This document shows, one piece after another, positions 33,272 to 36,961 of a stretch of DNA of 64,000 nt; position 1 is the stretch's first letter, and the number at the start of each line of letters is the position of its first letter. The notes beneath the pieces are model-generated. The model worked only from the letters and a program-made list of their open reading frames with translations. It made no database searches and was not told where the DNA came from. Position numbers and translations under genes: made by a program. This DNA comes from Flaviaestuariibacter flavus (lineage in GTDB: Bacteria > Bacteroidota > Bacteroidia > Chitinophagales > Chitinophagaceae), in contig NZ_SJZI01000052.1 in NCBI RefSeq assembly GCF_004337505.1, positions 124,001-188,000 on the forward strand. Reading direction: 5' to 3'.

Positions 33272-33970
33272 CTATTGGGGATGGGACCGAAAGCCGCGCG
33301 GCCACAGATTTGTAATGGCCAGTGCGAAGCCAAGTAAGAGGATGAGTATCAGTGCGAACCGGGGAACGGTAATGCCGAGCCCTTCAGAAAGCAGTGTGCC
33401 GCCGATAAGCGCCCTCGCGCCCGGGATCAGGATCTTGAAGAGCACGCGTTTGTTCAGGAGGCGGCCGACCGGCCCTGATGCTAACAGGAGTATCCCGGAA
33501 GCCACCGCTACCGCGCAATACATAATGCCGGGGTCGCGGGTAAGCCCAACTGCCGTCATCGTGCTGGCGACGGAAAAGATCAGGTTGATCGCAAGTACCT
33601 GCATGGAAACACCGGCCAGCAGCCGTTTTTCGCTAATGAGCACCAGCAGGGGCGCCGGCGCGAGCGCGCCGCGTATTTCTTTTATCGACTGGTACAGGAG
33701 AAAAGCGCCGCCGGAAAGCAGAATGATCGTCCACAACGGAACGGCCGCCCCATCCGGTAGAAATACGGAACCGTCCGGGGACATTACCGCCGAGAGCCCG
33801 CCAAGAAAAAGAAACCGGAAACAAAGCGCCAAAATAGTCCCGGCCCACCGTGCGCGGATGCGCCGCCTTCGCGGCAGCCTTTCGGTAACCATCGTAAGAA
33901 AGGCCATGTTTTCCAGCCCCAGCGCCAGTTCCAGAAAAACCAGCAGCAGCAGCGATGCCATCCATTCCAT
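33272..33970 (-). CDS. TerC-family integral membrane protein
   Basis: 232 residues with about seven hydrophobic helices. The family opening ELALGLENMAFLTMVTERLP corresponds to the TerC 'E..LGiDN..F....lP' motif, but Asp is replaced by Glu (LGLEN). A basic loop (RRRRIRARWAG) follows, and LLSGGAFLLYQSIKEI matches the conserved middle helix. TerC proteins are linked to tellurite resistance and to Mn2+ efflux or loading of exoproteins. It lies 35 bases downstream of a small membrane protein gene on the same strand. Confidence 0.8.
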   Translation of the reverse strand: MEWMASLLLLVFLELALGLENMAFLTMVTERLPRRRRIRARWAGTILALCFRFLFLGGLSAVMSPDGSVFLPDGAAVPLWTIILLSGGAFLLYQSIKEIRGALAPAPLLVLISEKRLLAGVSMQVLAINLIFSVASTMTAVGLTRDPGIMYCAVAVASGILLLASGPVGRLLNKRVLFKILIPGARALIGGTLLSEGLGITVPRFALILILLLGFALAITNLWPRGFRSHPQ

Positions 33971-34005
33971 AAAAATCCATTTAAGTTGTACTACGGAAAC
34001 GTGAA

Positions 34006-34194
34006 TCAGGAATCCTTGTTCCTGTTTCTTTTTCCCGCGATCATCGCGATGATGAACACGGGAACGGAGATGTACAGGAGTTGGTACCAGGCCGGTCCGC
34101 CGGTTAGCCCCGCTGCCAGCACCGCGCCGTTCACCAGTGCGAGCATCAGCGTTACCGTGCCGGGTACAGAAACTTCCTTCCAGTTTCTGGACAT
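34006..34194 (-). CDS. Small two-helix membrane protein (62 aa)
   Basis: MSRNWKEVSVPGTVTLMLAL begins a first hydrophobic helix, and WYQLLYISVPVFIIAMIAG forms a second, ending in a basic tail (KRNRNKDS). The positive ends suggest both termini are inside. It is 35 bases upstream of the TerC-family gene and probably co-transcribed. No family recognised. Confidence 0.6.
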   Translation of the reverse strand: MSRNWKEVSVPGTVTLMLALVNGAVLAAGLTGGPAWYQLLYISVPVFIIAMIAGKRNRNKDS

Positions 34195-34254
34195 GACGCC
34201 GATTTTTAGAAAGTGATCAGGAAAAAATAGAAAGCAGGCCCGAAACGCCTGTGC

Positions 34255-34425
34255 TTATGCAGCGACCTTGAAGTGCTTGAGGCTGGAGTAGTAGAAGAGT
34301 TCCGCGCAGAACGGAATGAATTCGGGGAAAGACCAGGTATAACAATCGCTCATATCCAGAACCAGTGCCCGGACGATCGTTGGACGATGCGTATTTATAT
34401 GAGCCGATACCATTGTTGCAAACAT
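34255..34425 (-). CDS. Small paralogous protein A (56 aa), DCYTWSFPEFxPFC family
   Basis: ATG at 34425, TAA at 34255. The protein begins MFATMVSAHINTHRPTIVRA and continues LVLDMSDCYTWSFPEF, IPFC, AELFYYSSLKHFKVAA. A second ORF 110 bases away on the other strand encodes a homologue: by hand alignment without gaps, 24 of the last 36 positions are identical, including the block DCYTWSFPEF-x-PFC. Conservation at protein level with many synonymous base differences (for example CTGGTTCTGGAT against CTCGTGCTTGAC) argues that both are translated. Two cysteines, no signal peptide. Function unknown; the family is not one I recognise. Confidence 0.72.
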   Translation of the reverse strand: MFATMVSAHINTHRPTIVRALVLDMSDCYTWSFPEFIPFCAELFYYSSLKHFKVAA

Positions 34426-34535
34426 AAGGAGGAAACTTGTGTAGAACGCCCTGGTGGATTTCCGAAACGTTAAAACTCCCGGCTGCTAACACAACCCGCC
34501 TCCGCGAACGACGATTACTTCCCCGGATTTCAGGT

Positions 34536-34712
34536 ATGTTTGTATTCGTGCAAACGGCCGTACACCATATCGTTTCCGCATCTTCGGTGAAGCATCTCGT
34601 GCTTGACCTGCAGGATTGCTATACCTGGTCGTTTCCAGAGTTTCTTCCTTTTTGTACAGACCTGTACTATATCTCCAGCTTTAAGATCTACAAGGCGGCT
34701 TCCCTTCGCTGA
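34536..34712 (+). CDS. Small paralogous protein B (58 aa), DCYTWSFPEFxPFC family
   Basis: ATG at 34536, TGA at 34710-34712. It begins MFVFVQTAVHHIVSASSVKH and continues LVLDLQDCYTWSFPEF, LPFC, TDLYYISSFKIYKAASLR. It is the divergent partner of the gene at 34255-34425; the two start with MF and differ most in the N-terminal 20 residues. Aromatic, Cys-containing and acidic in the middle, with a basic end. The 110 bases between the two ATGs presumably hold both promoters; I see no perfect TAnnTTTG there. Confidence 0.72.
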   Translation: MFVFVQTAVHHIVSASSVKHLVLDLQDCYTWSFPEFLPFCTDLYYISSFKIYKAASLR

Positions 34713-34981
34713 AGGATGTCATTGTAAATGCTTGCTGCCTGCGGCTTTCGCTGCATCGTAGCCGGTTCCCGTTGTTTCCTGTGATAACATGAATGGTCCT
34801 ATGCCGGAAAGCCCGGGGCTGCGTCTTTTTTCCTGACATGAAGAAGGCCAGCCACGGTGCTGCCCGGATGTTCCGTTCGGTACAGGGTGCGTTTGCTATT
34901 GCTGAATACAACCGGCATCGTAAAGCTTTCTGATCTCCTTCGATGGACGCTCCAATAATTTTTACAAATAATAATCTGACG
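34713..34981. other. Gap without a confident gene
   Basis: Contains one 31-residue frame (34838-34933: MKKASHGAARMFRSVQGAFA, then IAEYNRHRKAF), a basic peptide with no supporting evidence beyond its composition. Otherwise only the leader region of the glutamate synthase gene. Confidence 0.3.
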
Positions 34982-36547
34982 ATGATGTGGAAAGAAACAG
35001 TCCGGGTTCCGGCCCGGGCAATAATTCTCATTTTGATTTTTATCGCTAATGCGCTCCTGGCTGCACGGGTACTATTCAGCGGCGCCGGTGCCTGGTGGCT
35101 TTGGCTGACGGTGCCCTTGCTGGCGCTTGCGGTTTATGATATACTCCAGAAGCGGCACGCCGTGACGCGGAACTACCCCGTGCTCGGGCACCTGCGCTAC
35201 CTGTTTGAGGCGATCCGGCCGGAGCTGCGCCAATACTTTTTCGAATCGGACCTCGACGGCAAGCCCTTCAACCGAAGGCAGCGCTCCGTCGTTTACCAGC
35301 GGGCGAAAAACCAGCGCCAGACCGTTGCATTTGGTATGCAGGCCAACCCGTCGGCGCCGGGTTATGAATGGGCGGCACACTCGATCTACCCGGTGGAGAT
35401 ACCGGACCGTGACCTACGCGTGCAGATCGGCAACGCGCAGTGCCTGCAGCCTTACAGCGCCAGTATTTACAATATCGGGGCTATGAGCTATGGCGCGCTC
35501 AGTAAAACCGCGATCGCCGCCCTCAATGAAGGCGCACGCATGGGCGGCTTTGCCCACAATACCGGCGAGGGCGGCATCAGCGAGCACCACCTGGGCGGAG
35601 GCGACCTCATCTGGCAGATCGGTACCGGTTACTTTGGCTGCCGCGATGCAGAAGGCCGATTCAGCGCAGCGGCATATCGCAGGAATGCGTTGCGACCCCA
35701 GGTGAAGATGATCGAACTCAAACTTTCGCAGGGCGCAAAGCCGGGCCACGGGGGCATCCTTCCGGCCGCGAAGAATACCGCCGAGATCGCAGCGATCCGG
35801 TTGGTAGAGCCCGGCACCACGGTGCATTCGCCGAAGCGGCACGCGCAATTCGATTCGGCCGAAGGCCTCGTGGAGTTCCTGCAGCTGCTTCGGGTGCTGA
35901 GCGAAGGCAAGCCCGTCGGCTTCAAGTTGTGTATCGGGAACCAGCAGGAGTTTGTAGAAATCTGCGAGGCGATAACAGCCACCGGGATCATACCGGATTT
36001 TATCACCGTCGACGGCGGCGAAGGCGGCACCGGCGCGGCGCCCCTTGAGTTCACCGACCATCTTGGTATGCCTATTTATGATGCGCTTGCATTCGTGCAC
36101 CAGACTTTGAAAAAGTATAACCTGGCGGAGCGTATTACGGTGATCGCTGCCGGCAAAATCATCACCGGTTTCGACCTGCTCAAGGCCATGGCCCTTGGTG
36201 CCTCGGTTTGCTACAGCGCTCGTGGAATGATGATGGCGCTCGGTTGCATCCAGGCCCTGGTTTGCGACAGTGGACGCTGCCCCGTGGGCGTGGCGACGCA
36301 GAACCCGTCGCTGTACAAAGGCCTTGACCCGGCCGACAAAGCGGTGCGGATATACAATTTTCACCGAAAGACGATCGAAGCAACCTGCGAGCTGATGGAG
36401 GCCTGTGGCTTCCTCCAGGGAAACGAGGTGGATCCCGCGCACTTTTTCCGGCGCACCAGCGAGCAGGAGGTCCGGACTTTTCACCAGATCTATTTCAACA
36501 AGACAGGGGGCCTGCTGAAACCTTTATTCAAAAACACTTTAAACTGA
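34982..36547 (+). CDS. FMN-binding glutamate synthase family protein, membrane-anchored
   Basis: 521 residues from ATG 34982 (MMWKETVRVP); ATG 34943 upstream is possible. Two hydrophobic helices at the N-terminus (AIILILIFIANALLAARV, WWLWLTVPLLALAVYDIL) precede a GltB-type synthase/FMN domain: YNIGAMSYGALSKTAI, HNTGEGGISEHH, KPGHGGILPAAK, VDGGEGGTGAAP and a Cys cluster (CDSGRCPVGVATQNP) like the 3Fe-4S ligands. It has no glutaminase domain, so it is not a classic complete GOGAT alpha subunit; archaeal-type relatives use other partners, and the electron donor is unknown. Followed at six bases by a Gre-type factor gene. Confidence 0.88.
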   Translation: MMWKETVRVPARAIILILIFIANALLAARVLFSGAGAWWLWLTVPLLALAVYDILQKRHAVTRNYPVLGHLRYLFEAIRPELRQYFFESDLDGKPFNRRQRSVVYQRAKNQRQTVAFGMQANPSAPGYEWAAHSIYPVEIPDRDLRVQIGNAQCLQPYSASIYNIGAMSYGALSKTAIAALNEGARMGGFAHNTGEGGISEHHLGGGDLIWQIGTGYFGCRDAEGRFSAAAYRRNALRPQVKMIELKLSQGAKPGHGGILPAAKNTAEIAAIRLVEPGTTVHSPKRHAQFDSAEGLVEFLQLLRVLSEGKPVGFKLCIGNQQEFVEICEAITATGIIPDFITVDGGEGGTGAAPLEFTDHLGMPIYDALAFVHQTLKKYNLAERITVIAAGKIITGFDLLKAMALGASVCYSARGMMMALGCIQALVCDSGRCPVGVATQNPSLYKGLDPADKAVRIYNFHRKTIEATCELMEACGFLQGNEVDPAHFFRRTSEQEVRTFHQIYFNKTGGLLKPLFKNTLN

Positions 36548-36553
36548 TAGGTA

Positions 36554-36961
36554 ATGTCACAGGAAAACAAAGGAATCACAATGACGCGGGAGGACCATGC
36601 GCTGATACACGCGCATCTCCGGCTCGCTACGGGCCGCTTAGGCACGCGCCAGGATGAAAAGGACGATCTGGAAGAAGAGCTCCGGAAGGCAGTCCTGGTG
36701 GAGCCGGGTGAAATCCCGCCCGACGTGGTTCGGATCAACTCAGTTGTAGTAATACAGGAAGAAGGACGCCAGCCGATCCGACTGACCGTAGTCGCACCGG
36801 CTAAGGCCGACGCCTCGCGGCGCCTGATCTCCTTCGTTTCCCCGATGGCCGCCGCGCTGATCGGCTACCGGAAAGGGGATATTGTAAGTTGCCGGCTGCC
36901 CGGCGGAGTGCGGACCTTTGAGATTGTCGACGTTCAACAGGATGCGGGTATCCACGAGTAA
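36554..36961 (+). CDS. GreA/GreB-family C-terminal domain protein (Rnk-like)
   Basis: 135 residues. The C-terminal half matches the FKBP-like Gre domain (VVRINSVVVIQEEGRQPIRLTVV; SFVSPMAAALIGYRKGDIVSC). The N-terminal part (MTREDHALIHAHLRLATGRL) is short and lacks the long coiled-coil needed to reach the polymerase active site, so it is closer to Rnk/nucleoside diphosphate kinase regulators than to true transcript-cleavage GreA. Likely an RNA-polymerase secondary-channel or core-binding factor. Six bases downstream of the glutamate synthase gene, so same operon, ended by a strong terminator. Confidence 0.82.
   Translation: MSQENKGITMTREDHALIHAHLRLATGRLGTRQDEKDDLEEELRKAVLVEPGEIPPDVVRINSVVVIQEEGRQPIRLTVVAPAKADASRRLISFVSPMAAALIGYRKGDIVSCRLPGGVRTFEIVDVQQDAGIHE

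Follow-up and report, generated by a model that had tools for sequence, protein, structure and literature searches.

The window analyzed here, a stretch of 64,000 nucleotides from Flaviaestuariibacter flavus (contig NZ_SJZI01000052.1), contains two homologous small open reading frames (ORFs) that diverge from each other across 110 nt, at positions 34255 to 34425 on the reverse strand and 34536 to 34712 on the forward strand, and whose products align without gaps. An earlier note on this DNA gave their lengths as 56 and 58 codons, which is correct when counted from the ATG codons that it chose, and found 24 of the 36 C-terminal-most positions identical between the copies, a count that a comparison of the printed translations by eye reproduces. 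The ATG codons themselves had to be abandoned as starts: both fall within a promoter-type box, TATGTTTG, and the start position conserved in relatives is a different one. Because of this conserved position and the spacing rule of the promoter box, we place the start of copy 1 at the ATG at 34413 (34255 to 34413, reverse strand; 52 amino acids plus stop) and that of copy 2 at the GTG at 34548 (34548 to 34712, forward strand; 54 amino acids plus stop). The first gene after copy 1, on the same strand, encodes a 62-amino-acid protein of a type with two transmembrane segments (2-TM; 34006 to 34194), and the second encodes a TerC-family membrane protein (33272 to 33970). On the forward strand, copy 2 is followed by a gene for a glutamate-synthase-domain protein (PF01645; 34943 to 36547) and by one for an Rnk-like factor with a GreA/GreB C-terminal domain (36554 to 36961).

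The inverted arrangement, which had been taken as the unit of interest, does not hold as such, as the host genome contains a lone third copy on a different contig; a second back-to-back pair was found in one related genome (L004/L016). The third host copy precedes a 2-TM gene and a gene of a family of about 170 amino acids that we call F170. The host thus has three leaders for three operons, and in its assembly (completeness, 85.8%) a leader precedes both 2-TM genes and the sole F170 gene. A weak 2-TM match elsewhere (C9:94292; E-value, 0.145) looked like chance. The host genome also has a second GreA-domain gene (C3).

In line with the reading of the note, relatives carry homologues. The window protein alone matches 13 of 98 genomes (E ≤ 0.01), 12 of which belong to the genus of the host, the host included. 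With an alignment as the query, 76 of the 394 genomes sampled from the host's family match at the same threshold, corresponding to 35 of 101 genera, although the weakest rows are uncertain, and another alignment, in which divergent members are represented, matches 56 of 294 genomes and 32 of 101 genera at E ≤ 0.001. Carriers include Chitinophaga, Niastella, Flavisolibacter, Longitalea, Sediminibacterium, and Ferruginibacter. In a sample of 395 genomes from across the class, matches came from 3: the host, one congener, and one genome from another family. For the counts below we used a set of 67 loci (64 named loci and the three copies of the host, two of them in the window) and a set of 88 loci, which adds 21 divergent ones. 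The divergent loci are L141 and 20 that were picked by hand from the 38 lowest rows of the family search; the other 18 rows, at least 3 of which have internal stops, were left out, and the alignment A2 contains 12 of the 21. Start-based counts cover 66 loci, one locus without a start being omitted. All counts treat loci as independent and are uncorrected for the tree, though loci of the same genus are related. A mobile element was considered and rejected: a single scan of viral contigs, with the window protein as the query, and searches of phages and plasmids with the protein of one relative yielded no homologue, although distant ones could escape such searches.

The codon pattern of the small ORFs is far from chance. 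Over a block of 30 codons, copies 1 and 2 differ at a pS of 0.91 and a pN of 0.19 (ratio, 0.21), which bears out the purifying selection on translated paralogues that had been proposed for them. Among the 67 homologues, pN is lower than pS in all 2,206 scored pairs (of 2,211; 5 pairs with a pS of ≤0.1 were left out), with a median ratio of 0.24; third codon positions are the most variable (mean entropy by codon position, 0.61/0.53/1.32), and stops interrupt the two alternative forward frames of this block in 43/67 and 62/67 homologues. Both window ORFs therefore look real and translated, as far as the sequences tell. The constraint is confined to one end: the first 17 codons past the start have a pN/pS of 0.85 (53 sequences), which is near-neutral, versus 0.24 in the C-terminal block. 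A constrained C terminus behind a variable N terminus is a feature of arrest peptides, and the alignments agree with it.

The geometry of these ORFs is regular. They are usually about 54 codons long, and the start codon lies exactly 30 codons upstream of a conserved EF in 53/67 loci and 29 to 31 codons upstream in 65/67; the distance from EF to the stop is 24 codons in 39/67 loci, and the spacing between core and stop is variable. Upstream, the box TAnnTTTG precedes the start by exactly 13 nt in 31/66 loci, for which chance predicts 0.0003 per locus (from a shuffle that kept base composition only), and by 12 to 14 nt in 39/66. The same box occurs somewhere within 60 nt before the start in 42/66 loci and within 60 nt after the stop in 1/88, and its strict form is absent near the start in 24/66. 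In the window, the sigma-A-type −7 box TATGTTTG lies at 34419 to 34426 on the reverse strand (copy 1) and at 34535 to 34542 on the forward strand (copy 2), each time containing the ATG of the earlier note; consensus and position follow the description for Flavobacterium, where TAnnTTTG occupies −12 to −5 relative to the transcription start (PMC9723704). Applying this placement to a box 13 nt upstream puts the 5′ end of the transcript about 1 nt upstream of the start codon, and the small ORF is therefore probably translated from a leaderless mRNA. Such mRNAs made up 5.5% of those examined in Flavobacterium psychrophilum (PMC9723704), and 5′ untranslated regions under 10 nt are put at about 3.7% in Bacteroides thetaiotaomicron (PMC7366714). 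A further element, TTTAAC, precedes the start of copy 1 by 61 nt (34469 to 34474, reverse strand); TTTAAC or CTTAAC is present at about this distance (within 2 nt) in 18/67 loci by raw count, including copy 1 and not copy 2.

Within the near-neutral N-terminal half, one short element is conserved at the level of nucleotides. NATA occupies positions +19 to +22 of the ORF in 55/66 loci, as AATA in copy 1 (34392 to 34395, reverse strand) and as CATA in copy 2 (34566 to 34569, forward strand). In 58 of 65 loci (L118 also omitted), codon 7 is CAT, TAT, AAT, or GAT, and in 61 of the 65 the base that follows is A. In the 59 loci where codon 7 has the form NAY, its third base is T in all but one, versus 338 T to 280 C elsewhere within the same ORFs.

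The peptide itself resembles nothing in the databases searched, in line with the note, which recognized no known family. Pfam gave no match, NCBIfam gave nothing but one stray match (E-value, 0.015, in 1 of 59 members), and the best PDB matches had E-values of 1.2 to 1.3. In PHROGs, a family lacking a description was reached by 3 of 59 members (best E-value, 0.0043). The N termini are mostly hydrophilic by eye. The C-terminal core is rich in aromatic residues, and divergent members retain mainly FC..LYYFS.FK.F close to the C-terminal end; many members have Cys, Gly, His, Asp, or another residue in place of the Trp of the core. The earlier suggestion of a metal site, a disulfide, or a helical dimer fits poorly with this pattern, since the first cysteine is not conserved and divergent members keep little beyond the short core, and AlphaFold2 predicted no fold for the single chain from 59 sequences (mean pLDDT, 54.5; pTM, 0.15).

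What lies downstream is recurrent. In 85/88 loci, the ORF is followed on the same strand by a gene from one of four families, as is typical of a regulatory upstream ORF (uORF): the 2-TM protein of about 60 amino acids, F170, the Rnk/GreA-like factor, and the glutamate-synthase-like enzyme. Matches were counted at E ≤ 1e−4 and within 2,600 nt, and recognition of these families is partly circular, because the four models were seeded from the same loci (two divergent loci are among the 2-TM seeds). The open frame of the downstream family begins no more than 350 nt past the leader stop in 82/88 loci. Flanking neighbor genes, operon genes included, are co-oriented in 62/81 cases as a background (P = 2.2e−7, with loci treated as independent). 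None of the four families lies downstream in L096, L116, and L118, and no single family is common to all loci. As in the host, leaders precede differing gene sets within one genome in Niastella sp. OAS944 (L075 and L092) and Longitalea luteola (L093 and L107). Other recurrent neighbors are a Na+/H+ exchanger and TerC, and an HPF-like protein occurs in two loci; in these, L089 and L090, the HPF/S30AE-like gene sits between the leader and F170, and the protein of L089, the one scanned, matched Pfam just under the curated cutoff (E-value, 1.4e−4).

Two of the downstream families deserve a comment of their own. An F170 protein (L058:5460-5978) has no match in Pfam or NCBIfam, and AlphaFold2, run on 10 sequences, predicted a long N-terminal helix and a PH-like domain (mean pLDDT, 89.3). 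A fold search with this model returned PH-domain entries among the top rows; the PDB matches were weak, none with an E-value of ≤0.001. The model shows a PH-like order of elements, and F170 is putatively a membrane-anchored PH-like protein. No leader was present in the approximately 1.5 kb of upstream sequence read for 15 of 29 F170 matches; 8 of the 9 strongest have one. In many loci, stand-alone 2-TM proteins are matched by the model of the glutamate-synthase-like proteins and vice versa; the 2-TM protein may accordingly be the N terminus of this enzyme in free-standing form. The start context of the 2-TM-type gene is also conserved (51 loci), being roughly A-rich from −13 to −10 and followed by TTGCCATG.

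We also examined RNA structure around the leader stop. A hairpin whose 5′ arm begins in the last codons is predicted in 35/67 loci, versus 64/670 with a shuffled 3′ flank, and in these stop-straddling hairpins pair types are exchanged at 5′ positions −8 and −7. The structure is below the threshold in the other 32 loci, all three host copies among them. Few T residues follow the hairpins (mean, 3.6 of 8), and 24/67 loci have a terminator-like structure near the stop, versus 28/201 shuffles, so that a canonical U-tract terminator, although found more often than in shuffles, accounts for a minority of loci and does not serve as a general explanation. In the window, a terminator scan found 3 candidates versus 1.4 (standard deviation, 1.2) in shuffles, which is near chance. 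A terminator-like hairpin followed by CTTTCTATTTTTT lies directly after the stop of copy 1 (34235 to 34251, reverse strand), where folding is no better than in shuffles (z = −0.67, 44/200). Between copy 2 and the glutamate-synthase-like gene there is an inverted-repeat structure followed by GTCTTTTTTCC (34734 to 34822, forward strand; z = −2.2 for its fold), which the terminator scan did not flag. Rfam 15 gave no match up to an E-value of 1 in window positions 33900 to 35100, and 20 relative loci gave no known leader: one match was above the gathering threshold and corresponds to transfer-messenger RNA (tmRNA), and two were below it. The tmRNA gene (L015:2451-2825, genome G055) is about 0.9 kb from the leader. 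When a ribosome was modeled at the leader stop, the predicted access to the next start changed from 0.50 to 0.53 (up in 13 and down in 7 of 51 loci). The idea that the stop hairpin occludes the next start, which we had considered, is thus unsupported, and so small a shift speaks against a simple occlusion.

Taken together, these features make it reasonably probable, in our judgment, that each small ORF acts in cis as a translated leader, that is, as a uORF heading its own operon, and probably as one of the arrest type. The earlier picture of a free-standing pair of proteins fits less well, given the near-neutral N terminus and the cis linkage to operons. At the level of sequence, support for a leader comes from coding selection, the position of the promoter box, the linkage in cis, and, for about half of the loci, the hairpin. 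A free N terminus, a regular geometry, a constrained C terminus, a stop hairpin in roughly half of the loci, a separate copy for each host operon, and downstream families that are not common to all loci together fit a leader peptide that acts in cis, most likely with pausing of the ribosome. Beyond this, we infer leaderless initiation, a single transcript, stalling, a direction of control, and a signal. We hypothesize that a sigma-A-type promoter would start the transcript about 1 nt ahead of the start codon and that the leader would be translated off this leaderless mRNA, with its N-terminal half serving as a near-neutral spacer. The conserved C-terminal block might then be sensed in the ribosome exit tunnel and, in some condition, bring translation to a pause or stall toward the end of the ORF, and the stalled ribosome would hold the stop-codon hairpin open, where one is present, and so change transcription or translation into the downstream genes. 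The genes controlled would be those for the 2-TM and TerC proteins (copy 1) and for the glutamate-synthase-like enzyme and the Rnk-like factor (copy 2). For the route of control, we infer that transcription attenuation, or a Rho-type effect as described for TnaC (PMC8429421), remains. As to the signal, the TerC and Na+/H+ exchanger neighbors lead us to guess at ion or pH stress, and the Rnk-like and HPF-like neighbors lead to an equally speculative guess at translation or growth stress.

Could the ORF instead encode a small protein that acts in trans as the first cistron, perhaps as a partner of the 2-TM or PH-like membrane protein? Strong amino acid selection on the C-terminal half and recurrent neighbors that could be partners are what one would expect of such a protein. 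We nevertheless consider it unlikely: the loci have no downstream family in common, each of the three host operons has a separate copy, the N terminus is near-neutral, no fold is predicted, and divergent members retain mainly the core. A leader that is translated without stalling, and that acts on the hairpin or on downstream translation through ribosome arrival, coupling, or reinitiation, would agree with the stop hairpin and the regularity of the geometry, and leader genes that boost the translation of the next gene have been proposed (PMC4833913). Such a leader leaves the amino acid selection, with a pN/pS near 0.2, unexplained, and the 2-TM start, 31 to 212 nt past the leader stop in the 51 loci modeled, is far for reinitiation; we regard it as rather improbable. 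The aromatic-rich core could also bring to mind an attenuator that responds to amino acid starvation through control codons for Tyr, Phe, Trp, or Cys. However, the Trp is not conserved and is replaced in many members, and only the glutamate-synthase-like family among the four recurrent ones resembles amino acid metabolism, which makes an attenuator of this kind highly improbable.

A translated leader of the arrest type would have well-studied counterparts. The TnaC peptide of the E. coli tna operon is likewise a short translated leader acting in cis in which specific residues matter, and the ribosome held at its end permits continued transcription, as we propose for the window family (PMC8429421). 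Unlike it, TnaC is described as a peptide of 24 amino acids that senses l-Trp and stalls at its own stop codon, which blocks Rho (PMC8429421), whereas the window family usually has about 54 codons, serves several operons per genome, and is probably leaderless. The Sec/YidC arrest peptides and the NAP-stop and NSP-stop uORFs of Bacteroidota also combine a short upstream ORF with a conserved C-terminal sequence (PMC10987492). According to that report, their discovery required an N-terminal localization signal and a downstream sec or yidC gene, and many have RAPP-like motifs. The window family differs in that no RAPP-like motif, as known from the SecM/RQH group, was seen by eye in 28 alignment rows, and neither sec nor yidC is among its recurrent downstream families, the 85/88 loci being followed by one of the four others. 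The NAP-stop and NSP-stop peptides are reported to end in proline (PMC10987492), and those of the window family do not in alignment A2. The toiL uORF of E. coli topAI is a third parallel, being a uORF in cis at which stalling alters downstream expression via RNA structure; as described, antibiotics stall ribosomes at several of its positions, and the ribosome-binding site that follows is occluded by the structure (PMC12121999). It is in this respect that toiL differs, as occlusion is unsupported in the window family.

The yybP-ykoY riboswitch is the leader of TerC-family genes, and alx is a TerC-family gene. Copy 1 resembles these leaders in being a candidate regulatory leader before a gene of this family and differs from them in kind, since they are RNA sensors. 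The alx leader is described as a pH-responsive RNA element (PMC3874183).

Regulatory uORFs are an established class, of which the leader family would be a variant. The family itself is apparently undescribed: a text search of open-licence PMC literature, which mostly leaves subscription papers and preprints outside, contained no description of it among the matches listed. As far as we are aware, most known nascent-peptide switches belong to individual operons. The present peptide family is apparently reused as a cis module before several operons, in 35 of the 101 sampled genera (E ≤ 0.01). We therefore offer, as a tentative proposal in which we place less than even confidence, that a single family of arrest-type leaders on leaderless mRNAs, copied before several operons, might form a small nascent-peptide-sensing regulon, in which the near-neutral N terminus of fixed length and the nucleotide tag at codon 7 would be parts of the switch. 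The apparent reuse is in a phylum for which leaderless mRNAs are reported to be uncommon (PMC9723704, PMC7366714). Gene families of unknown function, F170 and the 2-TM protein, would gain a regulatory handle, and the C-terminal core is a candidate stall motif that is directly testable. A leader and an operon of this kind are also found in a metagenome-assembled genome titled Williamsia (L069), an actinobacterial name; the title is probably wrong, because an identical leader peptide was read in a genome of the host's own family (G132, L183).
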